A stretch of 64,000 bases of DNA from NCBI GenBank assembly GCA_028283825.1, contig JAPWJW010000001.1, positions 1,240,001-1,304,000 on the forward strand, read 5' to 3'. Position 1 is the first letter of the stretch, and every line of letters starts with the position of its first letter. Source of the stretch: Azospirillaceae bacterium. GTDB taxonomy: Bacteria; Pseudomonadota; Alphaproteobacteria; Azospirillales; Azospirillaceae. Shown one piece after another: positions 18,786 through 33,806 of the stretch. The position numbers and the translations under genes are program-made. The notes beneath the pieces are model-generated. The model saw nothing but the letters and a program-made list of their open reading frames with translations, was not told the origin of the DNA and made no database searches.

Positions 18786-18786
18786 T

Positions 18787-18910
18787 CAGCGGCATTCATG
18801 CCGCTGTAGGCTGCGACCGCAGCCGCCGGAGATTGCCGGGGAGCCGGAGGCGGACTGGAAATCGAGGAAGCCCGAGCCAGCGGATGCTGGCGCCCGGCGC
18901 CTGAGGGGGC
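18787..18910 (+). repeat. Three-hairpin structured repeat element, copy A
   Basis: Starts 2 bases after the stop of paralogue 1. Hairpin I: CAGCGGCAT (18787-18795) with ATGCCGCTG (18798-18806). TA, then hairpin II: GGCTGC, loop GACC, GCAGCC (18809-18824), followed by GCCGGAG. After a 44-base variable segment containing GAGGAAGCC comes hairpin III: GCCAGC, loop GGAT, GCTGGC (18876-18891), then GCCCGGCGCCTGAGGGGGC. Copy B at 33685 has the same order, loops and flanks, with stem bases changed on both sides. Here it lies between convergent genes, so a 3' untranslated role is possible. No known family was recognised. Confidence 0.75.
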
Positions 18911-18942
18911 CTTTGGTCGGTTCCGATCAAAGGCCGTGCGTA

Positions 18943-19503
18943 TCAATTCACCCGTTGTTTTGCCAGCTTGCGTGCCAGGGTCCGGCGGTGCATGCCCAGG
19001 CGGCGGGCGGCTTCGGAAACGTTGAAGTCGGTATCGGCCAGTGTCTCGTGGATGCGTTCCCACTCCAGCGTCTTGATGGAGGTGGCGCGGTTGCTCAGCC
19101 CGATGTTGCTGTCGCCCTCGACCCGGCCGAAGGCGGCCTCGATGTCGTCGGTGTTGGACGGCTTGGCCAGGTAGTGGCAGGCGCCCAGCTTGATGGCCTC
19201 GACCGCGGTGGCGATGCTGGCGAAACCGGTCAGCACCACGATCTTCATTTCCGGGTTGTGGGCGTGCAGGATCTTCACGCACTCCAGGCCCGAGGCCCCG
19301 GCCAGCTTTAGATCCACCACGGCGAATTCCGGATCGGTCTGCGCCAGGATTTCCGGCAGGGCTTCTGCCCGGTCGCATTGCAGCACGTGATAGTCGCGCC
19401 GCTCGAACGACCGCTTCAGCGCCCGCCCGAAGGAGGGGTCGTCCTCCACGATCAGCAGGGTGGGGCCCCCTTCGGGGGATGCGGCGGCGTTTTCGTCAGT
19501 CAT
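18943..19503 (-). CDS. regA: RegA/ActR/PrrA-type redox response regulator
   Basis: 186 residues, the family length. Receiver with acidic pocket EDD (20-22), phosphoacceptor Asp64 (FAVVDLKLAGASGLE) and Lys (YLAKPSNTDD); a linker; and the near-invariant Fis-type helix-turn-helix (NVSEAARRLGMHRRTLARKL). RegA controls respiration, carbon/nitrogen fixation and photosynthesis genes according to redox state. Its ATG overlaps the regB stop by 8 bases. Cyo oxidase genes directly upstream are plausible targets. Confidence 0.95.
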   Translation of the reverse strand: MTDENAAASPEGGPTLLIVEDDPSFGRALKRSFERRDYHVLQCDRAEALPEILAQTDPEFAVVDLKLAGASGLECVKILHAHNPEMKIVVLTGFASIATAVEAIKLGACHYLAKPSNTDDIEAAFGRVEGDSNIGLSNRATSIKTLEWERIHETLADTDFNVSEAARRLGMHRRTLARKLAKQRVN

Positions 19504-20815
19504 CCGAATCCTCGATCACCAGCGAACTTGTCGGCAGGCGCAATTCCACGGTGGCGCCACCGGCGGGGTTGTTGACGGCAGTTACCCGCCCACCCAGTTT
19601 GCGCGCCACATTAACAACAAGGAAGAGGCCCAGGCCGCGCCCTGGCTTGTTCTTGGTGGACTGGTAAGGCTTGCCGAATCGCGCCAGGATGTCCGGCGCG
19701 AAGCCGGGCCCGCGATCCTGCACCGTGACGATCAGCAGGCCGTCATGGCAGGCGACGTCGATGCCGACCCAGCCGGGCGATGCCTCCAGCGCGTTGTCGA
19801 ACACGTTGAACAGGCTCTGCTTGATGGCGGTGTCGGAGGCGATCACCACGTCGTCGGCGATGTGGTTGGTGTAATCGATGGCGCGCTCCGCATGGGCGGA
19901 CCGCCAATCCTCCACCACGTCGTCCATGAAGGTGACCAGGGTGGTGCGCTCCGCCCCCTCGGCCCGCGCCTCGCCGGCCGTCAGCAGGACGCGGGAGACG
20001 ATCTCCTTGCAGCGGGCCAGTGCCGCCTGCATCTCATCCAACTCATCCACCATGTCGGGCGGAAAATCGGCCTTCGCACCCTTGGCGGCCATGCGGCGCC
20101 AGTCGCTGAGGATGACCGACAGGGTGGCCAAGGGCGTGCCCAGCTCGTGGGCCGCCCCCGAGGCCAGCAGGCCCATGCGGACGATGTGGTCCTCCTCCAC
20201 CGATTTCTGGCGCAGGTCGGACAGGCGGGCATCGCGCAGGCGCAGATTGCCGTTGATGCGGGTGACGAAACTAACGGCCAGAACGGCGGCCAGCAGGAAA
20301 CAGATGAAGGTGCCGGCCAGGTACAGGTCGAACACCCGGGGCCAGGCGCCGCCCGACGATGCCAGCCCCTGGGAGAACAGGGCGATGTCCCGGTGATAGG
20401 CGGTCAGGCCGACGAAGCAGGCGCAGGTCACCCCCACCAGGGTCCAGGTCAGGGGGGACCGCAGCAGGACGGCGCCCAGGATGACTTGCAACAGGAACAG
20501 CGAGATGAAGGGGTTGCTGGCCCCGCCGCTGAGGTACAGCTGAACCGTCAGTCCCGCCACGTCCAGCAGCAGGCCCAGGAACAGTTCGGTGTTGGTGATG
20601 ATCGCGCGGCTGCGGGTGCGGTACAGGCTGACCAGGTTCAGCAGCACCAGGAACAGGATGACGGTGCCCATGGGCAGCAGGGGAAGCTCGATATCGAACC
20701 AGGCGTGGGCCATGGCGATGGTGACGATCTGGCCGCCCACGGCCAGCCACCGCAGGGTGACCAGCAGCAACAGGTTCTTCTGGTTGGTGGTATCCTGGAT
20801 CGAAATGTCTTCCAT
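19496..20815 (-). CDS. regB: RegB/ActS/PrrB-type redox sensor histidine kinase
   Basis: 439 residues. Six membrane segments occupy residues about 15-185, with the ubiquinone-binding motif GGASNPF (97-103) in place. The H-box is AAHELGTPLATL with His223, and the redox-active cysteine is Cys269 in LARCKEIV, matching Cys265 of Rhodobacter RegB. ATPase motifs: NVFDNALEASP, DRGPGF, GRGLGLFLVVNVARKLGG. The kinase senses the quinone pool and is expected to phosphorylate the downstream regA product. Unusually it directly follows the cyoABCD operon, separated by two strong hairpins. Confidence 0.95.
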   Translation of the reverse strand: MEDISIQDTTNQKNLLLLVTLRWLAVGGQIVTIAMAHAWFDIELPLLPMGTVILFLVLLNLVSLYRTRSRAIITNTELFLGLLLDVAGLTVQLYLSGGASNPFISLFLLQVILGAVLLRSPLTWTLVGVTCACFVGLTAYHRDIALFSQGLASSGGAWPRVFDLYLAGTFICFLLAAVLAVSFVTRINGNLRLRDARLSDLRQKSVEEDHIVRMGLLASGAAHELGTPLATLSVILSDWRRMAAKGAKADFPPDMVDELDEMQAALARCKEIVSRVLLTAGEARAEGAERTTLVTFMDDVVEDWRSAHAERAIDYTNHIADDVVIASDTAIKQSLFNVFDNALEASPGWVGIDVACHDGLLIVTVQDRGPGFAPDILARFGKPYQSTKNKPGRGLGLFLVVNVARKLGGRVTAVNNPAGGATVELRLPTSSLVIEDSDD

Positions 20816-20893
20816 CCTGTCCCTAGCGCCTCCCTGGACGGATGTCTGTGTCAGGCAGGACTAGCGTTCGAACGTAGGCTTATCAACGACTAA

Positions 20894-20948
20894 GGCGATC
20901 ACGGGGCCACCCGCGGGACGATCCGCCGCGGATGGCCCCGTGATCGCC
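20894..20948. repeat. Long near-perfect hairpin upstream of regB
   Basis: GGCGATCACGGGGCCA (20894-20909) pairs perfectly with TGGCCCCGTGATCGCC (20933-20948), and inside it CCGCGG (20911-20916) pairs with CCGCGG (20926-20931), leaving a loop of 9. It lies about 80 bases before the regB start on the minus strand. It could be an attenuator/terminator between cyo and regBA or a folded leader; there is no T-run on either side. Confidence 0.6.
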
Positions 20949-20990
20949 CTGGTGGCCGCGTCACGGGTAATCATTAAGGGACGAAACGAT

Positions 20991-21036
20991 CCCAGGGGAA
21001 GGGGAGGGGGCTTAAAAGCCCAACCCTTCCCCTGGG
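20991..21036 (-). terminator. Terminator hairpin of the cyo operon
   Basis: CCCAGGGGAAGGG (20991-21003) pairs with CCCTTCCCCTGGG (21024-21036), and an inner GGGCTT/AAGCCC stem (21008-21021) extends it. It begins 8 bases after the cyoD stop on minus and is followed by ATCGTTTCG. Position and strength indicate the 3' end of cyoABCD. Confidence 0.7.
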
Positions 21037-21043
21037 GGGACGC

Positions 21044-21421
21044 TTACTCCATCGGCATCGCGCCGGGCATCATGTTGGCGTTCAGGTGGAGCATGACCCA
21101 CCAGGAACCCACCACCACGATGGCGACGATCAGCAGCGTGAAGATGAAGGCGGCCATGTTCCAGGACCGGCTGGAGGCCGCGTTCATGTGCAGGAAGTAG
21201 ACCAGGTGCACGACGATCTGGACGATGCCCAGGCCGAAGCAAACCGGGACGGCGGTCTCGGCCGGCAGGGCGCCGGACATGACCAGGGCGAAGGGAATGG
21301 CGGTCAGGATGACCGACAGGATGAAGCCGATGATGTACGACTTCACGCTGCCATGCGCACTGTCGCCATGATGGCCGTGATCATGCCCATGGGCAGCGGT
21401 AGCGGAATGCGAAGCGCCCAT
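21044..21421 (-). CDS. cyoD: Cytochrome o ubiquinol oxidase subunit IV
   Basis: 125 residues. A histidine-rich N-terminus (HGHDHGHHGD) leads to three membrane helices (SYIIGFILSVILTAIPFALV, IVQIVVHLVYFLHM, FIFTLLIVAIVVVGSWWVM), matching CyoD. ATG 21421 overlaps the cyoC stop (TAATG). Subunit IV aids assembly of the CuB centre in the bo3 oxidase. Confidence 0.92.
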   Translation of the reverse strand: MGASHSATAAHGHDHGHHGDSAHGSVKSYIIGFILSVILTAIPFALVMSGALPAETAVPVCFGLGIVQIVVHLVYFLHMNAASSRSWNMAAFIFTLLIVAIVVVGSWWVMLHLNANMMPGAMPME

Positions 21422-22056
21422 TATGCGGCCACTCCCGTGAGATAGACGATGGTGAACACACCGATCCACACGATGTCCAGGAAGTGCCAGAACAGGCTCA
21501 GGCACGTCAGGCGGACGATGTTGGTGTGGGTCAGGCCGCGGCGCAGCACGTGGGCCATCATGACCACCATCCAGACCATGCCGGACAGGACGTGCAGGCC
21601 GTGGGTGCCAACCAGGGTGAAGAAGGACGACAGGAAGGCCGAACGGTCGGGGCCCGCACCTTCGCCGATCAGCTCGGCGAATTCATGCAGTTCCATGAAC
21701 ATGAAGCCCAGGCCCAGCAGCAGCGTCAGGGCCAGCCACACCAGGGTGGCGGACTGCTTCTGCCGCTCGGCCATGATCATGGCCATGCCGTAGGTGAAGC
21801 TGGACACCAGCAGGCAGGCGGTTTCGCCGGCCACGTAGGGCAGGCTGAACAGCTCCTTGGCGTCCGGCCCACCGGCCGTCTGTCCGCGCAGCACCGCGAA
21901 CGCGGCGAACACCGCCGCGAACAGGATGCAGTCGCTCATCAGGTAGATCCAGAAACCAAGCGTGGTCTTGGACCCGTCGTCGTGGTGTTCCTCGTGAACA
22001 TCCACGTGGGTGAGGAGGGCCGCGTCACCGGCCAGAAGATGGGTATTGCTCGTCAT
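21421..22056 (-). CDS. cyoC: Cytochrome o ubiquinol oxidase subunit III
   Basis: 211 residues with five predicted membrane helices and the typical start of helix 1 ([20 protein letters not shown]) and the final [18 protein letters not shown]. Histidines in [16 protein letters not shown] are characteristic. It starts one base after the cyoB stop codon, indicating coupled translation. Confidence 0.95.
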
Positions 22057-22057
22057 C

Positions 22058-24037
22058 TCAGACCTGCGACGTCAGTTGCTTGAAGTACTTGCCTTCAGTA
22101 TCGGCCACCGTCTCGGAGGGGACGTAGTAGTCCCGGTTCTCGTTGAAGGTGTGCGCGATGCCGATGGCGACCGCACCGGCGAAGGCCGCGACGACCAGCC
22201 ACCAGATGTGCCAGATCAGCGCGAAGCCCAGGACGGCGATGAAGCCGCCGAGGATGGGACCCGTGCCCGTGTTGTGGGGCATGTGGATCCGGCCGTAGGC
22301 GGGCAGGGGCTGCAGGCCGGCGCCGCTGTTCTGCTTCTGCTCCCAGAAGGCATCGCGGCCGTGGACGACCGGGGTGGCCGGGAAGTTGTAGAACGCCGGC
22401 GGGGAGGACGTGGCCCACTCCAGCGTACGGCCGTTCCACGGATCGCCGGTCAGGTCGCGCAGCGACTTGCGGTTCAGCACGCTGACCAGGATCTGCAGGA
22501 CGAAGGCGCCGATGCCGCAGGCGATGACCGCCGCACCCAGCGCCGCCACCAGCAGGTAGTTGTGCCAGACGACGTTGTCGACGTGGTTCATGCGACGGGT
22601 CATGCCCATCAGGCCCAGGGCGTACAGGGGCATGAAGGCCAGGTAGAAGCCGACCAGCCAGCACCAGAACGACACCTTGCCCAGACCCTCATGCAGCTTG
22701 AAGCCGAAGGCCTTGGGGAACCAGTAGGTGAAGCCGGCCAGGTAGCCGAACAGCACGCCGCCGATGATGACGTTGTGGAAGTGGGCGATCAGGAACAGGC
22801 TGTTGTGCAGCACGAAGTCGGCCGCGGGCACCGCCATCAGAACGCCGGTCATGCCGCCGATGACGAAGGTGACCATGAAGCCCAGGGTCCACAGCACCGG
22901 AACGGTGAACTGCAGGCGGCCCCGGTACATGGTGAACAGCCAGTTGAAGATCTTGGCGCCGGTCGGGATGGAAATGATCATCGTGGTGATGCCGAAGAAG
23001 GCGTTCACGTTGGCACCCGCACCCATGGTGAAGAAGTGGTGCAGCCACACGATGAAGGACAGGATGGTGATGCAGACCGTGGCATAGACCATGGAGGTGT
23101 AGCCGAACAGCCGCTTGGACGAGAAGGTGGAGATGACTTCGGAGAAGATGCCGAAGGCCGGCAGGACCAGGATGTACACCTCAGGATGGCCCCAGGCCCA
23201 GATGAGGTTCACGTACATCATGGCGTTGCCGCCACCGTCGTTGGTGAAGAAGTGCATGCCCAGGTAACGGTCCAGGGACAGCATGGCCAGCGTCGCGGTC
23301 AGGATGGGGAAGGCCGCCACGATCAGCATGTTGGAGCACAGGGTGGTCCAGGTGAAGACCGGCAGGCGCATCATGGTCATGCCCGGCGCCCGCATCTTCA
23401 GGATGGTCGTGATCATGTTCACGCCCGCCAGAAGGGTGCCGATACCTGAGATCTGCAAGGCCCACAGATAATAGTCCACGCCGACGCCGGGGCTGTACTG
23501 CAACTCCGACAGGGGCGGGTAGGCCAGCCAGCCGGTGCGGGCGAACTCACCCACCGCCAGCGAGATGTTGATCAGCAGCGCGCCCGCGGCCGTCAGCCAG
23601 AAGCTGAGGTTGTTCAGGTAGGGGAACGCCACGTCGCGCGCGCCGATCTGCAGCGGCACGACGATGTTCATCAGGCCGACCATGAAGGGCATCGCCATGA
23701 AGAAGATCATGATGACGCCGTGGGCGGTGAACACCTGGTCGAAGTGCTCTGGCGGCAGCGGGCCGGCGGCGCCGGTCGACGCCATCGCCTGCTGGGTACG
23801 CATCATCACGGCGTCGGCGAAGCCGCGCAGCAGCATCACCAGCGCCAGGATGATGTACATGATGCCGATGTTCTTGTGGTCGACCGAGGTCAGCCACTTG
23901 GACCACAGGGGGCCCCACAGCTTGAAGAAGGTGAGGGCGGCGAAGGCCGCCACACCACCCAGGACCATCATCGCCACGGCCACCATGATGATGGGCTCGT
24001 GGTAGGGAATGGCCTCTAGAGTCAGTTTACCAAACAT
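22058..24037 (-). CDS. cyoB: Cytochrome o ubiquinol oxidase subunit I
   Basis: 659 residues (E. coli CyoB 663). This is the catalytic haem-copper subunit. CuB ligands lie in [14 protein letters not shown] (His, with the crosslinked Tyr) and WLHHFFTMG; haem ligands in [12 protein letters not shown]. The N-terminal quinol-site region ([15 protein letters not shown]) and about 15 helices are present, so it reduces oxygen with ubiquinol and pumps protons. It lies 3 bases after cyoA in a tight operon. Confidence 0.97.
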
Positions 24038-24040
24038 AAA

Positions 24041-25003
24041 TCACAACCCTCTCGGATTGGCGGGATTGCACAGCTGGACATCGCCGCCAACCGCCTCTTT
24101 CGCCATGGCGAGGCTCACGGCGGCGTCCATGCAGGTGGAACCGTCGGAGCACTTGTTCAGGATGTCGTGGTAGAGCGTCGGCTCGACCTCGGCATAGGAG
24201 CTGACCGGGTCCTTCTCGCTGGGCTTGGCCAGCTCGCGGTACGTGGCCATGGTCAGTTTCTTGTCACCGGCGCGGACGTTCTCGACCCAATGGGCGAAAT
24301 CGTCGTCGCTCATGGCGTGCGCCACGAAATGCATGTCGGAGAAGCCGCCGCCGCTGTAGTTGGCGGACAGGCCGTCATAATCACCGACGGCACTGGCCAG
24401 CAGGTTCAGCTTCGTTTCCATGCCGGGCATGGTGTAGATCTGGCTGCCCAGGCGCGGGATGAAGAAGGAGTTCATCACCGTTGCGGAGGTCAGCTTGAAG
24501 TGGACGGGCGTGTCGGCCGGGAAGGCCAGCTCGTTCACCGAGGCGATCTGCAGGTCGGGGTAGATGAACAGCCACTTCCAGTCCATGGAGACGACCTCGA
24601 CCTCAATGGTCTTCTTGTCGCTCACCAGTGCCTTGCTGGGCTCCAGCGTGTGGGACGACACCCACGTCACGTAGGCCAGGATCGCAATGATGATGCAGGG
24701 GACGCCCCACACGAACAGTTCGATCTTGGTGGAGTGTTCCCAGTCGGGCGTGAAGGTCGCCGCCTTGTTCGAGGCGCGGTAGCGCCAGGCGAAGAACAGC
24801 ACCATCGCGATGACCGGAACGATGACGATAAGCATCAGGCACGTGGCCAGGATGATGATCGACTTTTCCTCGGCACCGATGGGACCCATGGGGTCCAGCA
24901 GCGCCATGTCGCAGCCGCTGAGCAGCGGGGCCAAAGCCGCCAGCGCCGCCAGGGATTTTGTGCGGCCGCGCAGGTGCCGCAAAAGTCTTAGGGTCGGGGT
25001 CAT
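24041..25003 (-). CDS. cyoA: Cytochrome o ubiquinol oxidase subunit II (lipoprotein)
   Basis: 320 residues (E. coli 315). The signal peptide ends in a lipobox (LAPLLSGCDM), followed by two membrane helices (IIILATCLMLIVIVPVIAMV; LFVWGVPCIIIAILAYV) and the cupredoxin domain (NSFFIPRLGSQIYTMPGM) lacking CuA ligands, as expected for quinol oxidases. ATG 25003 is selected because it begins a normal lipoprotein signal; the frame stays open to 25270 without sense. Confidence 0.95.
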   Translation of the reverse strand: MTPTLRLLRHLRGRTKSLAALAALAPLLSGCDMALLDPMGPIGAEEKSIIILATCLMLIVIVPVIAMVLFFAWRYRASNKAATFTPDWEHSTKIELFVWGVPCIIIAILAYVTWVSSHTLEPSKALVSDKKTIEVEVVSMDWKWLFIYPDLQIASVNELAFPADTPVHFKLTSATVMNSFFIPRLGSQIYTMPGMETKLNLLASAVGDYDGLSANYSGGGFSDMHFVAHAMSDDDFAHWVENVRAGDKKLTMATYRELAKPSEKDPVSSYAEVEPTLYHDILNKCSDGSTCMDAAVSLAMAKEAVGGDVQLCNPANPRGL

Positions 25004-25854
25004 TCTGTCCACGCAAAGCCGTGATTGATCGTAAACGTCGTGCTTTCTAATCTTTATGGCCGGCAAGCCGGCGGCGCGTTGGGGTTGTGAGGTTCTGCCC
25101 CCAAATGGGGCCAGGGCCTGACCGCCCGCCAAGCGCCCGGGGATGAAACATCCCCGCGCATCGCTTGAGGTTTCGCACTGCACAAGAACTAGACCTCCAC
25201 CACCCCATTTATCGAGTTCATTATGCAGACGGGATTGGACAATTGGTCCAAGGGCGCTTGGCCGGAACACGTGTACGCGTGCGCGCGAGCGCCGCGCAGA
25301 CGGCCTAATTCACTGATTTGAAACGTATATTTTTGATGTGCCGAATGAACTGTCCATTTGGCTAATCTGTGACATGCATCACGCGTAGACCTGCCGCGCC
25401 CAGGGGGCAAACGCGGCTCTTGGTTAAAGGCTGCCCTTTCGGTCATCCGTGTGTCGAAACCGCCCTCCGATTCGGAATCTGCCAACACCACCAATGGTTT
25501 ATGGTTAGGGATTCGTTAACGGCCGTCCTGTCGCCCACAGGAGCGTTTCGGCAGTGCGGAATGCCTTTCCGGCCAGCATCCTTTTATAGTGTGCATGGGG
25601 TGTTGGACCCACCGTTGGGTGGTCGAGAAATTCTTGGAAGGTCGGCATTCCCGAAAAACCCAGCAGCAGCCCACTGCGGCCGCCCGTGGCCGGCAAGATA
25701 GGTAAATAATCCTGTCTTTTCAGCGGGATATTTCTATTTCTCCCGACTGCTGGCGTTGGCATACAGTGCCAGCTGCGGCATTCCGTGCCGCCCATAAGAC
25801 ATCGGGCCCGGCAGCGCATCCGGCATCCCCGATAACGAGGAGGAAAACGCCGTC
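25004..25854. other. 851-base gap upstream of cyoA
   Basis: Divergent promoter region for cyoABCD and the lipid-oxidation operon. It holds the 8-bp-stem inverted repeat at 25138-25156 and an AT-richer part around 25310-25370. Open frames up to about 110 codons have no recognisable domain. No clear FNR-type TTGAT-N4-ATCAA site was found. Confidence 0.5.
25138..25156. promoter_or_regulatory. Inverted repeat in the cyoA leader/promoter region
   Basis: CGGGGATG (25138-25145), spacer AAA, CATCCCCG (25149-25156) is a perfect dyad about 135 bases upstream of the cyoA start. It may be an operator for the oxidase operon; RegA would be a candidate because of its neighbourhood, but RegA sites are degenerate and this is not a recognised consensus. 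Confidence 0.35.
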
Positions 25855-26661
25855 ATGTCAGACACCCCGGCCGGGACCAGGACCAGCGTCCTGCACAACC
25901 TGTTCGACCTCAGCGGCCAGGTGGCCCTGATCACCGGTGGCTCACGCGGCTTGGGCCTGCAGATCGCGGAGGCGCTGGGCGAGTTCGGTGCCCATCCCGT
26001 GCTGGTGGCCCGCAAGACCGACGAACTGGATGCCGCCGTGGCCCATTTGGCGGCGCAGGGCATCGCCGCCAGTGCCATCCCCGCCGATCTCGGCCGGCAG
26101 GATGCCATGGCTCCGCTGGTGGAGCGGGTGATGGCCGCCCATGGCCGCATCGACGTGCTGGTCAACAACGCCGGCACCACCTGGGGGGCGCCGGCCCAGG
26201 ACCACACGCCCGAGCAGTGGGCCAAGGTGGTGGATCTGAACCTGAACGGCGTTTTCTTCCTGACCCAGGCGGTGGCGCGGGCCGCCATGCTGCCCCTGAA
26301 GCGCGGGCGCATCGTCAACGTGGCCTCCGTCGCCGGCCTTCAGGGTCACCATCCCAGCATGATGGGCACGGTGGCGTATGGCACCACCAAGGGCGCCGTC
26401 GTCAACCTGACCCGCGTGCTGGCGGCGGAGTGGGGACCGCACGGCATCGCCGTGAACGCCCTGGCGCCCGGCTTTTTCCCATCCAAGATGACGCGCGGCA
26501 CCCTGGCCCGGCATGAGGAGGCGCTGGTGACCGGCACGCCCCTGGGAAAACTGGGCAACGATAACGATCTGAAGGGGGCGGCCCTGCTGCTGGCGTCGGC
26601 CGCCGGCGGCCACATCACCGGCCAAATCCTGGCGGTGGACGGCGGCGCCGGAATCATCTGA
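25855..26661 (+). CDS. Short-chain dehydrogenase/reductase of a lipid-oxidation operon
   Basis: 268 residues of the classical SDR fold: cofactor loop TGGSRGLG, NNAG, catalytic Ser in VNVASVAGLQG and Y-x-x-x-K in YGTTKGAVVN. GAGGAGG precedes ATG 25855. Gluconate-5-dehydrogenase/3-hydroxyacyl-CoA-type reductases share this pattern, and the next two genes are an acyl-CoA dehydrogenase and a FadJ-like protein, so a 3-hydroxyacyl or branched hydroxy intermediate is a likely substrate. Cytoplasmic. Confidence 0.88.
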   Translation: MSDTPAGTRTSVLHNLFDLSGQVALITGGSRGLGLQIAEALGEFGAHPVLVARKTDELDAAVAHLAAQGIAASAIPADLGRQDAMAPLVERVMAAHGRIDVLVNNAGTTWGAPAQDHTPEQWAKVVDLNLNGVFFLTQAVARAAMLPLKRGRIVNVASVAGLQGHHPSMMGTVAYGTTKGAVVNLTRVLAAEWGPHGIAVNALAPGFFPSKMTRGTLARHEEALVTGTPLGKLGNDNDLKGAALLLASAAGGHITGQILAVDGGAGII

Positions 26662-26686
26662 CCCCCGAACCGGAGAGGACGTTTCC

Positions 26687-28516
26687 ATGAGCACGCCGCC
26701 GGTTCGCGCCTGTGACCTGAGTTTCCTGCTGCACGACTGGCTGGACCTGGCCGGCGTGCTGGCCTGGCCCCACTTCGCCGACCATAGTGTGGAGACGGTG
26801 GACGCGATGCTGGACGTCGCCGGCCATGTGGCGGCCGACACCTTCCTGCCCCATTACAAGGCGGCGGATCAAAGGGAACCGCAGTTGGTGGACGGCCAGG
26901 TGCGTATCCTGCCCGAGTTTCATCAGGCGCTGGCAGCCTTCGCCGAGGTCGGCATGTTCGCCGCCCCCTTCGACGCGGATGTGGGCGGCCTGCAACTGCC
27001 GCAGCTGGCCTACAGTGCCGCCATGGCCCAGTTCATGGCCGCCAACGTGGCGGCCGCGGCCTATCCCATGCTGACCGCCGGCAATGCCCGTCTGCTGGTC
27101 CACCATGCCAACGAGGCCCTGGTGCGGGCTTGCGCCCTGCCGCAGGTGGAGGGGCGTTTCTTCGGCACCATGTGCCTGTCGGAGCCGCAGGCCGGGTCGT
27201 CGCTGGCGGATGTCGCCACCCGGGCGGCACCAGACGGGGCGGATGGGCTGGGCGACCGCTATCGCCTGTTCGGCAACAAGATGTGGATATCGGGCGGCGA
27301 TCAGGACGCCAGCGCCAACATCATCCATCTGGTGCTGGCCAAGGTGCCGGGACCGGACGGCAAGCTGGTGGCCGGCACCCAGGGCATCTCCCTGTTCGCC
27401 GTGCCCAAGGTGCTGGTCGATGGGTCTGATTTCGCAGGCCAGCGCAACGACGTGGTCGTGGCCGGCCTGAACCACAAGATGGGTTATCGCGGCACCGCCA
27501 ACTGCCTGCTGAACTTCGGGGAGGGGGCCGCCCATCGGCCGGGCGGGCAGGCCGGGGCGGTGGGGTATCGTGTGGGCGGGGTGGGCCAGGGCCTGCCCAT
27601 CATGTTTCAGATGATGAATGAGGCGCGGGTGTCCGTCGGCCTGGGGGCCGCCATGTTGGGCTATCGCGGCTACCGCCTGGCGGTGGACTATGCCCGCGAC
27701 CGCCGGCAGGGTCGCCCGCCGGGGGCCCGGGGCGGCGCCCCCGTTCCCATCATCGACCATGCCGACGTGCGCCGCCTGCTGCTGGCGCAGAAGGCCTACG
27801 CCGAGGGCGCCCTGGCCCTGGTGCTCTATTGCGCTAGGCTGGTGGATGAGGAACGGCACGGGCCCGAGGCGGACCGTGCCGAAGCCGGCGGCCTGCTGGG
27901 CCTGCTGACACCCGTGGCCAAGACCTGGCCGTCGGAATGGGGCTTGGCCGCCAACGACCTGGCCATCCAGGTGCACGGTGGCTACGGCTATACCCGGGAT
28001 TTCGATGTGGAGCAGTTGTACCGCGACAACCGCCTGAACCCCATCCATGAAGGCACCACCGGCATCCAGGGACTGGACCTGATGGGCCGCAAGACCCTGC
28101 GCGACGATGGCGCCTCGCTGGCCACCCTGCGCCACCGGGTGGATGCCACGGTGCATCGGGCGCGGGAACTGCCGGCGCTGGCCGACTTCGCCCACGGCCT
28201 GGACGTGGCCTGGGCCCGCATTGGCGCCCTGGTGGACCATCTGAAGGTCGCCGGCAATGATGCCGCCAGCCTGGCGCAGGCCACCCCCTTCCTGTCCGCT
28301 TTCGGCCACGCCGTGGTGGCCTGGCTATGGCTGGATCAGGCTGTGGTGGCCGCCGGTCCAGGAGGCGAGGATGTGGATGAGCCCGCCTTCCGCGCCGGCA
28401 AGCTGGCCGCATGCCGTTTCTTCTTCGAGAATGAGGTGCCGCGCGTCGATGTCTGGCTGGACATCGTCGGCCGGCGCAGCAACCAGACCCTGACCCTCGA
28501 CACCGCCTGTTTCTGA
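26687..28516 (+). CDS. Acyl-CoA dehydrogenase (DmdC/FadE5-like, about 600 residues)
   Basis: 609 residues, typical of the long acyl-CoA dehydrogenase subfamily. FAD/substrate motifs are MCLSEPQAGSSLADV and NKMWISGG, and the C-terminal block is IQVHGGYGYTRDFDVEQLYR followed by NPIHEGTTGIQGLDLMGRK, where the Glu is the expected catalytic base. The family oxidises acyl-CoA or 3-methylmercaptopropionyl-CoA to the enoyl form. It is 25 bases after the SDR gene and followed by the hydratase/dehydrogenase, so the three encode successive beta-oxidation steps. No thiolase is in the window. Confidence 0.92.
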   Translation: MSTPPVRACDLSFLLHDWLDLAGVLAWPHFADHSVETVDAMLDVAGHVAADTFLPHYKAADQREPQLVDGQVRILPEFHQALAAFAEVGMFAAPFDADVGGLQLPQLAYSAAMAQFMAANVAAAAYPMLTAGNARLLVHHANEALVRACALPQVEGRFFGTMCLSEPQAGSSLADVATRAAPDGADGLGDRYRLFGNKMWISGGDQDASANIIHLVLAKVPGPDGKLVAGTQGISLFAVPKVLVDGSDFAGQRNDVVVAGLNHKMGYRGTANCLLNFGEGAAHRPGGQAGAVGYRVGGVGQGLPIMFQMMNEARVSVGLGAAMLGYRGYRLAVDYARDRRQGRPPGARGGAPVPIIDHADVRRLLLAQKAYAEGALALVLYCARLVDEERHGPEADRAEAGGLLGLLTPVAKTWPSEWGLAANDLAIQVHGGYGYTRDFDVEQLYRDNRLNPIHEGTTGIQGLDLMGRKTLRDDGASLATLRHRVDATVHRARELPALADFAHGLDVAWARIGALVDHLKVAGNDAASLAQATPFLSAFGHAVVAWLWLDQAVVAAGPGGEDVDEPAFRAGKLAACRFFFENEVPRVDVWLDIVGRRSNQTLTLDTACF

Positions 28517-28554
28517 CCCTTCCCCGCCCGTTTTGAACCAAAGGAGCGTTCCCG

Positions 28555-30639
28555 ATGCCGGTGCAATTCGAGCTGCGGGGTGGCGTCGCCGTCCTGACCC
28601 TGGACCGCCCGCCGGTCAACAGCTTCGATCTCGCCTTGCGCCAGGACCTGCGCGCGGCGCTGGCCCGGGCCATGGCCGATCCGGCGGTGCGGGCCGTGGT
28701 GTTGACCGGCGGCCCGCGCCATTTCTCCGCCGGCGCGGATATCGAGGAGTTCGCGTCCGCCACCCGGGGCGGCGCCATGGCGGCACCGACCTTGCCCGAC
28801 GTGATCGCCGATCTGGAGGGGGCGGCCAAGCCCGTGGTGGCCGCCATCGCCGGCACCTGCCTGGGCGGTGGGCTGGAGGTGGCGTTGGGCTGCCACCACC
28901 GTGTGGCGGCGGCCAACGCCAGCCTGGGCCTGCCCGAGGTGAAGCTGGGCATCCTGCCCGGTGCCGGCGGCACCCAGCGCTTGCCCCGCGCCATCGGGGT
29001 GAAGGCGGCACTGGACATGATCCTGTCGGGCACGCCGGTTTCGGCCGCCAAGGCCGCCCAGCTCAGCTTGGTCACCCTTGCCGCCGGCGACCTGCTGGAC
29101 GATGCCGTGGCCGTGGCGGCGCAGGCGGCCAAGGACGATGCCCGTCCCCGCCTGTCCATGCGGCATGCGGTCTTGGCGGAGGACACCAGCGCCGACTGGT
29201 TCCAGCGTCAGGCGGATGGGCTGAAGCGCCAGCTGCCGGCACCATTGGCCTGCATCGACGCGGTGCGGGCGGCGGTGGAGCGCCCCTTCGGCGAGGGCCT
29301 GCTGAAGGAATTCGCCCTGTTCCGCGAGCTGATGGCGACACCGGAGTCCAAGGCCCTGCAATACGCCTTCTTCGCGGAACGACGCGCCGCCCGCATCGAG
29401 GGCCTGGGCGCGGACGTGAAGCCGCGCGACATCCGGCGCGTGGCGGTCATCGGCGCCGGCACCATGGGCCACGGCATCGCCACCGTGGCGGCCAATGCCG
29501 GGCTGGAGGTCATCCTGCTGGACCGCGACCAGGCGGCGGTGGACAAGGGCCTGGCCGCCATCACCAAGGGTTATGACGCCGCGGTATCCAAGGGCCGCAT
29601 GGATGGGGCGGAGCGCGACCGCCGCCTGGGCCGCCTGCACACCGCCACCGACCTGGCGGCCACCGCTGCCGTGGATCTGGTGATCGAGGCGGTGTTCGAG
29701 AACATGGCCGTGAAGCAGGACATCTTCCGCACCCTGGACGATGTGTGCGAGCCGGACACCATCCTGGCCAGCAACACCTCCACCCTGGATCTGGACGCCA
29801 TTGCCGCCGTCACCCGCCGGCCGGAAAGCGTGGTGGGACTGCACTTTTTCAGCCCGGCGCCGGTGATGCGCCTGCTGGAGGTGGTGCGGGGCGCCAAGAC
29901 CGATCCGGCGGTGCTGGCCACCGCCATGGCGCTGTCCCGCCGCCTGGGCAAGGTCGGGGTGGTGGCCGGGGTCTGCAACGGTTTCATCGGCAACCGCATG
30001 ATCGAGGAGTATCTGCGCCAGGCCTATTTCCTGGTGGATGAGGGCCTGCTGCCCTGGCAGGTGGATGGCGCCCTGGAACGCTGGGGCATGGCCATGGGGC
30101 CCTTCGCCATGATGGATCTGGCGGGCAACGACATCGGCCGGGCCATCCGCGCCGGCCGGGCGGCCGCCGGCGACGCCCGGCCCTATTCCGCCTTCGCCGA
30201 CAGGATCTGCGACCTGGGCCGCTTCGGCCAGAAAACGGGCAAGGGGTTCTACCAGTATGATCCGGCAACCCGGGCGCGGGAGACCGATCCGGAGGTCGAC
30301 GAACTGGCCCGTGTCCATGCCAAGGGGATCGGCCTGCCGCCGCGCGTCATCGGCGATGACGAGGTGGTGGCCCGCTGCATCCTGGCGCTGGCCAATGAGG
30401 GCGCGGCGCTGCTGGGCGAGGGCATCGCCCAGCGCGCGTCCGACATCGATGTCGTCTATCTCAACGGCTATGGCTTCCCGGCGCACCGGGGTGGGCCGAT
30501 GTTCTACGCCGACAGCCTGGGGCTGGAGACGGCGCTGCGCCTGATGGAAGGTTTCCTGGGCGGCTACCAGGGCCAGTTCTGGACGCCTGCCCGCCTGCTG
30601 TGGGAAAAGGCCAGCGGCGGCGGCCGCCTGACGGCATGA
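28555..30639 (+). CDS. Enoyl-CoA hydratase / 3-hydroxyacyl-CoA dehydrogenase (FadJ/FadB-like)
   Basis: 694 residues, the normal size of bifunctional alpha subunits. The N-terminal crotonase half has HFSAGADIEEFA and the oxyanion/catalytic stretch LPEVKLGILPGAGGTQRLPR; the C-terminal half has the NAD loop VIGAGTMGHGIA, GLHFFSPAPVMRLLEVV and GNRMIEEYLRQAYF. AAGGAG lies about 9 bases before ATG. It hydrates enoyl-CoA and oxidises the hydroxyacyl-CoA in fatty-acid or branched-chain acid breakdown. Last gene of the operon, meeting the sulfotransferase tail to tail with a 3-base gap. Confidence 0.95.
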   Translation: MPVQFELRGGVAVLTLDRPPVNSFDLALRQDLRAALARAMADPAVRAVVLTGGPRHFSAGADIEEFASATRGGAMAAPTLPDVIADLEGAAKPVVAAIAGTCLGGGLEVALGCHHRVAAANASLGLPEVKLGILPGAGGTQRLPRAIGVKAALDMILSGTPVSAAKAAQLSLVTLAAGDLLDDAVAVAAQAAKDDARPRLSMRHAVLAEDTSADWFQRQADGLKRQLPAPLACIDAVRAAVERPFGEGLLKEFALFRELMATPESKALQYAFFAERRAARIEGLGADVKPRDIRRVAVIGAGTMGHGIATVAANAGLEVILLDRDQAAVDKGLAAITKGYDAAVSKGRMDGAERDRRLGRLHTATDLAATAAVDLVIEAVFENMAVKQDIFRTLDDVCEPDTILASNTSTLDLDAIAAVTRRPESVVGLHFFSPAPVMRLLEVVRGAKTDPAVLATAMALSRRLGKVGVVAGVCNGFIGNRMIEEYLRQAYFLVDEGLLPWQVDGALERWGMAMGPFAMMDLAGNDIGRAIRAGRAAAGDARPYSAFADRICDLGRFGQKTGKGFYQYDPATRARETDPEVDELARVHAKGIGLPPRVIGDDEVVARCILALANEGAALLGEGIAQRASDIDVVYLNGYGFPAHRGGPMFYADSLGLETALRLMEGFLGGYQGQFWTPARLLWEKASGGGRLTA

Positions 30640-30642
30640 GCA

Positions 30643-31896
30643 TCAGCCCAGCATGCGCAGGGTCAGCACGGAGAGGGCGAGGTGCACGGCCCGCCGCGCC
30701 ATGGGCCAGGATTGGAAGAAGGCGCGCAGCGGCCGGGTGATGCGCCAGGATGTGCTGTTCTCCATGGCGGCCAGCCTGGCCTTCAACCGGCGGGCGTTCA
30801 CCAGGCCCTGGCGCAACTGTGGCGTGGCGGCTGGTGCGGCACGTACCTCCGGACCGGCCGGGGCCTCGGTCAGCACGTCGTTCAGGATGCGGACCTCATG
30901 GACCAGCATCTGCGCCCGGGCGTCGATGGTCGACAGACTCTGGGTCAGGGTGGCGATCTGATGCGCCTGTTCCTCCACCTGATGGTTCAGGATGCCCAGC
31001 GCCCTGTCCATGCGGCCCATGTAGGTGAAGGCGGGGCGCAGGCGGTCGAAAGCCTGGGTCAGGCTGGCCAGGGTGGCGATGGCGGCCGGTGCTTCCGGTG
31101 AAAGCTCGTCCTGCGCCAAGCGATGCAGCAGGGTGTGGGCAACCGTCACCTCCTGCGGGACCGACCGTTCCAGCCGCAGATCCTCGGCATCGAAGGTGCT
31201 GTGGCGCAGTTCTTCCGTCAGAAAGTCGCGGGCGTAGCGTTCAGCCTCTTCCACATTCAGGGGTAGGCCCAGGCCATCGGCCAGGCGCCGCAGTTGCGGC
31301 AGCGGGTCGGCCATCAGGGTGTCGTATTCGACGATGACGCGGGCGTGGCCGGCGCTGTGGTGCAGGGCCGCCAGCATGTGGCCCTGCCACAGATAATGGC
31401 TCTTCTCCGCCGGGAAGCTGTCGCGCCGGCGCAGCGACGCCGCCACGCTGACGGGGTTGCGCACCGCGATGACATAGGCGGCGTCCAGGCACAGATGCGC
31501 GAAGACGGCCTTCCAGAAGGGCAGCAGCCGCGCCATGCGCGGATCCTTCATGGCGAAGACGCGGCCCTCCTTCAGCTTGCGTCGCAACAGAGTGGCCGCT
31601 TCCAGCATCAGGTCGGCGGTAGCCTCGCCGGTCAGTTGTTCATCGGGGATGCTGGTGATGGTGTGCCAACTATGGCCGAAGCGGGCCAGCAACTGGTCGT
31701 TCAGCGCCACCACCTCCGTATCTTCCCAGTAGCCACGCCGGTTGCCCTCGTTCGGTGGCATCAAGCTGTCGCCCAGATCCACGCCCAAGGTCAAAAGTCC
31801 GCGCGTGAGCGCGCTGGTGCCGCAGCGGTGCATGCCTAGCAGGACGACGATGCGGCGGGATTCGGAAGCGGGGATGGGGGGCTGCTGTCCGGTCAT
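30643..31896 (-). CDS. Sulfotransferase-family protein with glycan-locus C-terminal tail
   Basis: 417 residues from ATG 31896. The PAPS-binding-type loop IVVLLGMHRCGTSALTRGL and the 3'-phosphate region AYVIAVRNPVSVAASLRRR identify a sulfotransferase-like P-loop protein. The C-terminus holds a coiled-coil segment and the motif NSTSWRITRPLRAF, frequent at the end of bacterial glycosyltransferases and other glycan enzymes. A start at 31989 would add 31 residues without clear support. It may sulfate a surface glycan; the sulfatase at 5070 would act in reverse. Both roles are inferred. Confidence 0.8.
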   Translation of the reverse strand: MTGQQPPIPASESRRIVVLLGMHRCGTSALTRGLLTLGVDLGDSLMPPNEGNRRGYWEDTEVVALNDQLLARFGHSWHTITSIPDEQLTGEATADLMLEAATLLRRKLKEGRVFAMKDPRMARLLPFWKAVFAHLCLDAAYVIAVRNPVSVAASLRRRDSFPAEKSHYLWQGHMLAALHHSAGHARVIVEYDTLMADPLPQLRRLADGLGLPLNVEEAERYARDFLTEELRHSTFDAEDLRLERSVPQEVTVAHTLLHRLAQDELSPEAPAAIATLASLTQAFDRLRPAFTYMGRMDRALGILNHQVEEQAHQIATLTQSLSTIDARAQMLVHEVRILNDVLTEAPAGPEVRAAPAATPQLRQGLVNARRLKARLAAMENSTSWRITRPLRAFFQSWPMARRAVHLALSVLTLRMLG

Positions 31897-32473
31897 GAAA
31901 GGGTTCCACAGGTCTCGGGCACCACCGGACGGGCTGAAACTTTCCCGGGTGTGGGCGGGCGACGGGGTGGCAGGTGGTTGAGGTTGCATTTCAGGATGGG
32001 AAACATGGACCAGCTCAATCGCCCGTGGGACAGGCTGTATGCGTTCAGAATCCCGGTAATGCTGTTAAGAACACATTCAGGGCCGATCATGATCCCACCC
32101 TTTCCGACATATGGTGTTGGTGCCTCCTTTGATCCTACTGACACGGCGATGGAGAGTTTTTCCTGTCTCCGGCATTTGGCATAGTCTGGATTTCCGATCA
32201 TTGGCCTGGTTGGTCGGGTTGGAAACGGGCCTATATTTATGCAACCAACTCACCGTCACGTGACTGACACGTAAAGGGGATATCGGGCCTTGCGGCCGCC
32301 GTTGCCAGCGTGGCGTTTTAACGCGGTCCGGCGGTTGCCGCCTCCACCCTACGTCAAACGCCCCATACCCCGTTGTGGGGCCCGTCCTTAGCCTGAGGCC
32401 TGTAAACGCCGCCCCCGCCAAAAGGGCGGTGTCCAGGGAACAAACGGCACAATCAGACGGGAAGGGGATGGTG
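31897..32473. other. 577-base gap upstream of urtA
   Basis: Divergent control region of the sulfotransferase and urt genes. A perfect palindrome TCACGTGA lies at 32256-32263 with another TGACACGT next to it. I saw no sigma-54 type TGGCAC-N5-TTGC element, which would have been expected under NtrC control, and no gene. Confidence 0.45.
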
Positions 32474-33673
32474 ATGAGGGGGATGTACAAGCCGGCCGGC
32501 CTTGCGGCCCTGTTGCTGGCGGCGACCAGCCTGGCGCCGGTGGCGAACGCCGCCGACACCGTGAAGGTGGGCGTGCTGCAATCGCTGACCGGCACCATGG
32601 CCATCAGCGAGGTGACGGTGAAGAACGCCGAAATCCTGGCGATTGAGGAGATCAACGCCGCCGGTGGCGTGCTGGGGAAGAAGATCGAGCCGGTGGTGGA
32701 GGATGGCGCCTCCGACCCCGCGATCTTCGCGCAGAAGGCCACCAAGCTGGTGCAGGACGGCGGTGTGGTCACCGTGTTCGGCGGGTGGACGTCGGCCAGC
32801 CGCAAGGCCATGCTGCCGGTGTTCCAGAAGCTGAAAAGCCTGCTGTGGTACCCGGTCCAGTTCGAGGGCAACGAATGTTCGCCCAACATCCTGTATTCCG
32901 GCGCCCAGCCCAACCAGCAGATCCTGCCCGCCCTGCAATGGGCGGTGGAGAAGGGCTACAAAAGCTATTTCCTGATCGGTTCGGACTACGTTTTCCCACG
33001 CACCGCCAACCTGATCCTGAAGAAGCATATCGAGAACGATAAGCTGAAGGTGGCGGGTGAGGAATACGTGCCCCTGGGCGGCACCGACTTCAGCGCCGTC
33101 ATCGCCAAGGTGCAGGCTGCCAAGCCCGACATCATCTTCAGCACGCTCAATGGCGACAGCAACGTCAGCTTCTTCAAGCAGATGGCCGCCGCCGGCCTGC
33201 CCTCCGCCAAGCTGCCCGTCATGTCGTTCAGCATTGGTGAGCAGGAGGCCGTGGCCATGGGCCCCAGCCTGGTGGAAGGCAGCTTTGCGGCCTGGAACTA
33301 TTTCCAGAGCCTGGACACCCCCGCCAACAAGAAGTTCGTGGCAGCCTACCAGGCCAAGTTCGGCGTCGGTGCCGCCGTCACCGACCCCATGGTCCATGGC
33401 TATGTCGATGTCTATGCCTGGAAGGCGGCGGTGGAGAAGGCCGGCAGCTTCGACCCCGACAAGGTTCGGGCGGCGGCCGTGTCCTTGGACTATCTGGACA
33501 CCGCCATGGGCAAGGTGAAGTTCGCCGCCAACCAGAGCCTGGTGCAGACCGGCTATATCGGCCAACTGGACCCGACCGGCCAGTTCAAGATCATCTGGCA
33601 GTCCAAGGGCGACATCGCCCCCGACCCCTACGACCCCCTGGTCTTCCCGGGCAAGAAGTGTCCGGCGTCCTGA
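32474..33673 (+). CDS. urtA: Urea/short-chain amide ABC transporter, substrate-binding protein
   Basis: 399 residues: signal peptide (GLAALLLAATSLAPVANA) and a type-1 periplasmic binding protein closely matching UrtA/FmdD (VGVLQSLTGTMAISEVTVKN, FGGWTSASRKAMLPVFQ, LLWYPVQFEGNECSPN, YSGAQPNQQ). These residues form the urea pocket in the family. ATG 32474 has GGAAGGGG about 6 bases upstream; ATG 32468 and 32483 are alternatives. First gene of urtABCDE, but separated from urtB by 141 bases containing structured element B. Confidence 0.93.
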   Translation: MRGMYKPAGLAALLLAATSLAPVANAADTVKVGVLQSLTGTMAISEVTVKNAEILAIEEINAAGGVLGKKIEPVVEDGASDPAIFAQKATKLVQDGGVVTVFGGWTSASRKAMLPVFQKLKSLLWYPVQFEGNECSPNILYSGAQPNQQILPALQWAVEKGYKSYFLIGSDYVFPRTANLILKKHIENDKLKVAGEEYVPLGGTDFSAVIAKVQAAKPDIIFSTLNGDSNVSFFKQMAAAGLPSAKLPVMSFSIGEQEAVAMGPSLVEGSFAAWNYFQSLDTPANKKFVAAYQAKFGVGAAVTDPMVHGYVDVYAWKAAVEKAGSFDPDKVRAAAVSLDYLDTAMGKVKFAANQSLVQTGYIGQLDPTGQFKIIWQSKGDIAPDPYDPLVFPGKKCPAS

Positions 33674-33684
33674 TCCGGAATGCC

Positions 33685-33806
33685 AACGAGGTGAGGATCT
33701 GCCTCACCTCGTTGTAGGACGCGACCGCGTCCGCCGGAGCGAGCACCGCAGGGCGCAGTGAGGATAGCCAAGGCCACGGATGTGGCCGCCCGGCGCTTGA
33801 GGGAGC
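33685..33806 (+). repeat. Three-hairpin structured repeat element, copy B, in the urtA-urtB gap
   Basis: Hairpin I: AACGAGGTGAGG (33685-33696) with CCTCACCTCGTT (33702-33713). Hairpin II: GGACGC, loop GACC, GCGTCC (33717-33732), then GCCGGAG. A 32-base segment includes GAGGATAGCC. Hairpin III: GGCCAC, loop GGAT, GTGGCC (33772-33787), then GCCCGGCGCTTGAGGGAGC. Compared with copy A, the loops and flanks are the same and stem bases change in pairs. The last block GAGGGAGC is the ribosome binding site of urtB (ATG 33815), so folding could affect urtB translation; hairpin I may also end or protect the urtA message. Confidence 0.78.

Follow-up and report, generated by a model that had tools for sequence, protein, structure and literature searches.

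A dispersed, probably mobile inverted-repeat family with a conserved folded core at gene ends in Azospirillaceae and other Alphaproteobacteria

Location and architecture of the two copies

The 64,000-nucleotide (nt) stretch analysed here (the window; positions 1,240,001 to 1,304,000 of the forward strand of contig JAPWJW010000001.1, assembly GCA_028283825.1) belongs to an Azospirillaceae bacterium whose 7.16-Mb genome (G000) is Nitrospirillum-like. The closest named relative found by urtB is Nitrospirillum amazonense BR 11622 (95% identical; L031, an exact repeat of a G004 stretch and not counted as a separate genome). The window carries two copies of a folded intergenic element. Copy 1 separates a winged-helix regulator gene from a convergent response-regulator gene, and both of its flanks are the stop codons of these neighbours. 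Copy 2 occupies the gap between urtA and urtB, both identified by curated models above cut-off. The two copies are probably members of a non-autonomous inverted-repeat mobile family, resembling miniature inverted-repeat transposable elements (MITEs) and repetitive extragenic palindromes (REPs), with an unusually conserved folded core. This reading rests on the number and reach of further copies, on the ends of complete elements and on sites that are empty in relatives.

The original prediction had described a three-hairpin element at these two sites, running from hairpin I through a TAGG-preceded stem II (loop GACC), GCCGGAG and a variable part with GAGGA to stem III (loop GGAT) and GCCCGGCGCYTGAGGG. 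Both copies are found where it placed them, in the gene settings and with the order of parts that it gave; its hairpins are real, but the fold is larger and also comprises domain A, helix B and, in copy 1, hairpin IV (Table 1). The compensated changes that it had noted between the copies are likewise present, in stem II (GGCTGC/GCAGCC vs GGACGC/GCGTCC) and in stem III (GCCAGC/GCTGGC vs GGCCAC/GTGGCC). The GAGGGA tail of copy 2 is probably the Shine-Dalgarno sequence, or ribosome-binding site, of urtB.

Table 1. Coordinates in the window of the two element copies, their parts and bordering codons
Feature	Position	Strand	Remark
TGA stop of upstream regulator gene	18783-18785	+	winged-helix regulator (15879-18785; Trans_reg_C); left flank of copy 1
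Copy 1, complete form	18786-18942	+	hairpins I, II, A, III and IV, right terminal motif GCGTA
Copy 1 hairpin I	18787-18806	+	CAGCGGCAT/ATGCCGCTG
Copy 1 stem II	18809-18824	+	loop GACC
Copy 1 GCCGGAG	18825-18831	+	conserved linker
Copy 1 domain A	18832-18862	+	long subtype
Copy 1 CGAGGA	18863-18868	+	conserved linker
Copy 1 helix B	18870-18898	+	GCC 18870-18872 with GGC 18896-18898, around hairpin III; CG to GC covariation elsewhere in the family
Copy 1 hairpin III	18876-18891	+	loop GGAT
Copy 1 hairpin IV	18908-18935	+	GGCCTTTGGTCGG/CCGATCAAAGGCC
TCA on the + strand	18943-18945	-	TGA that ends the convergent response-regulator gene (18943-19503, -); borders copy 1 on the right
urtA TGA stop codon	33671-33673	+	its counterpart in genome G005 adjoins an inverted element that is flanked by TGA left and right
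Copy 2	33684-33803	+	urtA-urtB gap; short domain-A subtype, without hairpin IV
Copy 2 hairpin I	33684-33714	+	
Copy 2 stem II	33717-33732	+	loop GACC
Copy 2 GCCGGAG	33733-33739	+	
Copy 2 helix B	33767-33794	+	GCC 33767-33769 with GGC 33792-33794, around hairpin III 33772-33787 (loop GGAT)
Copy 2 tail GAGGGA	33799-33804	+	10 nt 5' of the urtB ATG (33815)

Copy number and reach of the family

The suggestion that the element is dispersed and REP-like is borne out by its abundance. An exact stem II pattern matches 43 times in the own genome, and 30 of these matches were taken as loci, one of which (L021) is not an element. Twenty-nine aligned own-genome copies (alignment A2, without L021, one truncated copy and duplicate entries of copies already included) served as the basis of covariance model R1. 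In its core (18805-18908), copy 1 scores 103.3 bits with this model, and copy 2 (33713-33804) scores 88.2 bits. R1 gives at least 150 matches in the genome, all of those listed reaching at least 98 bits, and since copy 2 itself scores just 88 bits, further copies exist beyond them. A looser pattern matches 182 times, vs 8 times for a reversed control pattern. A full R1 scan of two 400-kb blocks shows 21 and 62 copies (the latter from 63 rows, two of them being the halves of one copy split at a joint), where the loose pattern sees just 12 and 14. R1 itself overlooks some copies, as one unlisted element became visible in the site comparison described below. A fair extrapolation, as distinct from a count, is several hundred copies in the own genome. 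At least 98 to 100 copies are present in each of the six further genomes of the genus that were searched.

A core model of 78 positions (R2), for which 14 copies were taken exclusively from other genera, detects both window copies (51.8 bits for copy 1, 66.0 bits for copy 2) although their own genus did not contribute to it. Of 387 genomes from the class, 37 (counting the own one) have R2 matches at E <=1e-4, and these carriers span 18 families; 14 of these carriers hold at least 12 matches each, and five rest on one match only. A draw of 397 genomes from the phylum, for which the number of genomes outside the class is not given, contains 15 with matches, again including the own one, and all 15 belong to the same class. 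Short GC-rich queries may be under-reported in the searches of a plasmid collection, which gave one weak match on a Niveispirillum replicon, and of a phage collection, which gave no match to the element. No Rfam 15 family reaches its gathering score in the window, nor on the element in 11 + 14 loci of relatives, where the sole hit is a tRNA that is not the element; permissive scans of both copies give merely sub-threshold matches to animal families. A tRNA origin of hits of 76 nt was discarded, as ARAGORN gives no tRNA there.

Conservation of the folded core

The fold consists of stem II (loop GACC), domain A, helix B and stem III (loop GGAT), together with the outer hairpins I and IV. Domain A forms a stem between GCCGGAG and GAGGA in most aligned copies; copy 2 has a shorter subtype. 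Helix B (GCC/GGC, or GGC/GCC in some copies) encloses hairpin III, and its middle pair is CG in 64 and GC in 10 of 78 copies. Single-sequence folding favours instead a closing helix GCCGG..CCGGC; this candidate was rejected because some copies read CCGCC in its 3' strand, which varies with helix B, and it is helix B that covaries.

Among 78 distinct own-genome copies, 98.0% of stem cells are paired, and changes on both sides of a pair occur at 17 of the 23 pairs, in 274 cells vs 68 ± 6 after shuffling. Pairing drops to 25-55% when the structure is slid along the alignment, and it is kept at a median identity of 79% among copies, in a sample that favours intact ones, which speaks against the copies being pure fossils. 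The earlier proposal of selection on the folded structure is thereby upheld: the family has many further members, and a change in their stems II and III almost always comes with its partner change. Outside the genus, a shorter core is found, made up of stem II (its loop usually GAC[CT]), a simple stem A, AGCCAA, hairpin III with GGA, CCGGC and TGAGG; alignments A5 and A6 show covariation again. The same holding of the fold is seen in the urtA-urtB copies of seven genomes, which were not selected for pairing: stems II, B and III have 102 Watson-Crick and 2 G·T pairs in 105 cells, and hairpin I has 92 and 2 in 96 cells, with differing sequences.

On the question of which strand folds, the core stems have G·T in 36 cells vs A·C in 5, and G·T prevails in sense as well as in antisense copies, in few cells. 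The outer hairpins show little such asymmetry (13 G·T and 8 A·C in hairpin I, 4 and 4 in hairpin IV). As for the folding energies of the plus vs the minus strand, shuffled controls shift likewise (-4.2 vs -5.2 kcal/mol).

Element ends and insertion sites

Complete elements measure 146-173 bp and end in inverted repeats of the TACCA/TGGTA type in several genera. In 15 of 17 such elements, a 3-bp triplet TNA (N, any base) is identical on both sides (P = 7e-8 at a 25% chance each), under a rule that requires TNA on both sides, leaves identity free and counts identical inner stretches once. Omission of L179 and L196, whose right-end variants were added after viewing, leaves 13 of 15 (P = 9e-7). 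An alternative end rule, applied to an overlapping set, yields 18 two-ended copies, 11 of them with TNA on both sides and 7 of these 11 with identical triplets (P = 0.008). A duplication of TA had been considered and was given up for TNA after complete copies were compared. One genome, G034, has 24 matches to the right-end motif at no more than one mismatch, two of them inside one palindrome. Its elements are near-identical, with 4 of 11 cores equal to the consensus, which favours a mobile family; in the six-frame translation of one G034 copy two frames are open throughout.

At 9 of the 17 complete elements, the TNA serves as stop to an open frame that has at least 80 codons and a G+C content at third codon positions above 0.7. 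The background, taken from one block of the own genome (contig C1), is 283 stops among 2501 TNA sites that are intergenic or stops, which gives P = 3e-5 for an excess in 17 elements that stem from several genomes. The stop codons TAA and TGA, on either strand, are themselves TNA triplets, so that an element landing on one produces a second stop and does not damage the gene. Copies would thus gather at gene ends because insertion into stop codons is tolerated.

The same sites in relatives, and placement between genes

A clean empty site was seen for one copy. The own genome reads CTGTTA|TATGCG...CTGGTA|TTAGCC where relative G006 has CGGTTAGCC; the TTA that is single in G006 flanks the element on both sides in G000. 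Along a collinear 400-kb block of C1, 11 of the 21 G000 copies can be anchored in G006, where eight sites lack an element, one holds an inverted element of a different subtype, one a possible remnant, and one, which is the site of window copy 1, is rearranged. In the reverse direction, four of five G006 copies were anchored in G000; one of these sites is occupied in matching orientation, one in the opposite orientation, one is empty and one lies in a longer stretch. The site of copy 1 is empty in five of six relatives, and G001 has an element in opposite orientation there. The urtA-urtB gap is occupied in all seven genomes of the genus; in G005, the element is inverted, possesses hairpin IV and is flanked by two TGA triplets, of which the left-hand one is the urtA stop.

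Among 79 copies with called neighbours (a selected set, from which two of 81 were dropped at locus edges), 35 lie between convergent genes, 21 are sense and 21 antisense between tandem genes, and 2 lie between divergent genes. An unselected block of contig C3 repeats this distribution in 61 copies, the split copy being left out: 27 convergent, 16 sense, 16 antisense and 2 divergent. Of the gaps of at least 100 nt in this block, 35 are convergent, 114 are tandem and 49 are divergent, so that divergent gaps are depleted (P = 7e-5) and convergent ones enriched (P = 6e-5) in copies. Orientation relative to the neighbouring genes shows no bias. In all but one of the 21 sense copies, 22-55 nt separate the upstream stop from the core, which is about the room of hairpin I.

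Relation to known repeats

The element shares features of both MITEs and REPs, and it has two defining MITE features, inverted ends and a target duplication. According to one account (PMC2229807), the bacterial MITEs RUP, Correia/NEMIS and ERIC are likewise shorter than 200 bp, dispersed, bounded by inverted ends and a target duplication, and foldable as RNA. In contrast to those MITEs, which are A+T-rich and target TA, the present family is GC-rich, is flanked by TNA, often occupies stop codons, has a class-wide multi-helix core with near-invariant loops, and comes without a parent transposon found here. The same source describes the CerM-associated intergenic repeat (CIR) of Caulobacter and Brucella, also an alphaproteobacterial intergenic repeat with a conserved RNA fold, of two arms; CIR has a conserved GANTC, which is present in only 1 of 78 cores here. 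The REPs and bacterial interspersed mosaic elements (BIMEs) of the GTAG and CGTC superfamilies, as described in a second source (PMC3733652), resemble the element in their high copy number, extragenic palindromes and covarying stems, and the CGTC REPs of alphaproteobacteria equally lack a dedicated transposase. According to the same source, REPs are palindromes of 20-40 bp with an unpaired tag, whereas the present element folds into five or six helices and is bounded by terminal repeats and duplications. Listings, abstract openings and some passages of the literature contain no published description recognisable as this family.

The element also resembles in its build the pneumococcal BOX repeats (boxA-B-C), which are modular and structured and have a swappable middle part. 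BOX, whose taxon is unrelated to that of the element, is not known to have a terminal duplication. A 3-bp TNA target duplication, as found here, is made by the IS1031 group of the IS5 family. None of 15 IS5-type (PF13340) loci in four genomes has TACCA-type ends nearby, in a search that did not cover other transposase families, and IS5/DUF4096 was rejected as the parent for want of matching ends. The PF13340 loci of G000, including L397, are IS5-type transposase genes, and one locus has GAG.CTGTTT inverted ends beside TTA.

Origin and possible function

In the reading favoured here, a complete element consists of hairpin I, a conserved core that folds as a single strand (stem II, domain A, helix B with hairpin III, and the tail TGAGG) and hairpin IV, bounded by TACCA.../...TGGTA-type repeats. 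It probably inserts at TNA with a 3-bp duplication and would be moved by an enzyme acting in trans. Once settled, copies are strong hairpins in 3' untranslated regions and operon gaps, where they would probably affect messenger RNA (mRNA) 3' ends, as in urtA-urtB. Candidate selectors of the core fold are recognition during transposition, an RNA encoded by the element, or the binding of a protein. If this holds, the link between TNA and stop codons offers a simple and testable reason why small mobile repeats gather harmlessly at gene ends. A covarying multi-helix core within a mobile element is unusual and raises the question of what binds or reads it. The family is abundant in the genus and reaches 18 families of the sampled class, yet it has no Rfam match where scanned.

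Several observations weigh against a mobile origin or soften its support. The right-end motifs of the 17-element rule were picked after the copies had been viewed, and its P value is therefore optimistic. Identical triplets are missing in 2 of 17 copies under this rule and in 11 of 18 under the alternative one, although some misses of the latter look like wrong right ends. Of the window copies themselves, copy 1 has degenerate ends and non-identical flanks (TGA and TCA), and at copy 2 no termini can be recognised. No transposase with matching ends was found: the IS5-type loci lack such ends, as described, and the Y1 transposase family PF01797 has no match in the seven genus genomes. Motif and model score decided which copies entered the pairing statistics, a choice in favour of intact ones; a single pair contributes 21 of the 36 G·T cells, leaving 15 vs 5 without it. 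Among the near-identical G034 copies, the 11 changes in all (6 in loops, 5 in stems) include three stem changes that are unpaired. Finally, the pairing kept in the urtA-urtB copies is more than a dead insertion should show; its cause may be compensation in place, a new insertion or an exchange for another member of the family.

This last observation is also an argument for a host-beneficial, cis-acting RNA element, an mRNA 3'-end stabiliser or processing site selected at each site with spread playing a minor part. The fold in the urtA-urtB gap is kept in all seven genomes despite sequence differences in domain A and in stems I, II and III, two related genomes have the element in the gap between folP-like and glmM-like genes (three tandem copies and one), and copies lie right after stop codons in operons as well as between convergent genes. 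Such a role would require sense orientation to the gene acted on, yet sense and antisense copies are equal in number in both samples of tandem pairs. In addition, the same gap holds inverted elements at three places, eight of the 11 anchored sites are empty in G006, and the wobble asymmetry, in few cells, does not follow host transcription. Site-by-site selection of this kind thus appears unlikely. The equal orientations, together with the inversion in one of the seven urtA-urtB gaps, also speak against a transcript-processing signal as the primary role, which the original prediction had offered beside its REP-like alternative.

Mobilisation as a REP or BIME by a REP-associated tyrosine transposase (RAYT), which cuts single-strand hairpins with a Y1 tyrosine transposase, would account for a folded single-strand core, tandem arrays and an extragenic 3' placement, and GTAG stands directly 5' of stem II in 55 of 78 own-genome copies. 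At the same columns it occurs in none of the 14 diverse A6 copies; the core of 78 to 102 positions and the unit of 146-173 bp are at odds with the REP size, and PF01797, without a match in all seven genus genomes, is matched in only 4 of 17 genomes searched, without tracking element copy number. Terminal inverted repeats and 3-bp duplications are, moreover, not expected from Y1 transposition. RAYT mobilisation is accordingly highly improbable. It is very unlikely as well that the core is the gene of a trans-acting, guide-like structured RNA of a mobile system, carried in a DNA element. The class-wide loops GAC[CT] and GGA, with AGCCAA and TGAGG among otherwise free stems, and the strand-specific tolerance of wobble pairs would agree with such an RNA; open frames around three arrays include no transposase-like gene by eye (no family search was run there), and a derivative without an intact core (L375) retains the ends and the TCA flanks. 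A bolder extension of the mobile-family reading, unlikely on present data, would have the copies derive from transposons that carry class-wide a structured RNA module of their own (GACY, GGA, AGCCAA, TGAGG), which aids the transposition machinery, with stop codons as safe landing sites. If true, it would amount to fold- or RNA-assisted transposition of an undescribed kind.

Arrays, derivatives and neighbouring sequences

Tandem copies occur in other genomes, where the gene names given here come from the reading of translations, with no family search run. G281 has three copies at 114-115-nt spacing between its folP-like and glmM-like genes, and G406 has one copy in that gap. The corresponding loci (L317/L318), with an ftsH-folP-glmM-like gene row, hold 3 vs 1 copies in one gap and 1 vs 2 in a later one, and slippage or a rolling process is a possible origin of these unequal counts. 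In G551, an array of four copies at 136-137-nt spacing (L319, 8280-8920) directly follows a phage-capsid-like gene, from which it may be that the family rides on prophages.

The own genome also contains a second, short-core subfamily with TACCAA ends (L285, G000:C1:213546; L354, G000:C5:391733; L375), of which L375 is an internally deleted derivative that has kept TCA on both sides. L370 (about 42 nt) and L378 are lone palindromes of the end repeat alone; they may have arisen by deletion or may represent a REP-like stage of their own.

On the + strand of the window lie two diverged regulator-gene stretches that are paralogs (15879-18785 and about 49766-52133) and share direct repeats (D1, D3, D4, D13) at a near-constant spacing of ~33.5 kb. 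The first of these paralogs is directly upstream of copy 1, and relatives have other sequence beside the response-regulator gene. In G034, contigs C7, C31, C44, C50 and C55 have an element end in roughly their first 150 bases, and the element probably breaks the assembly of this genome.

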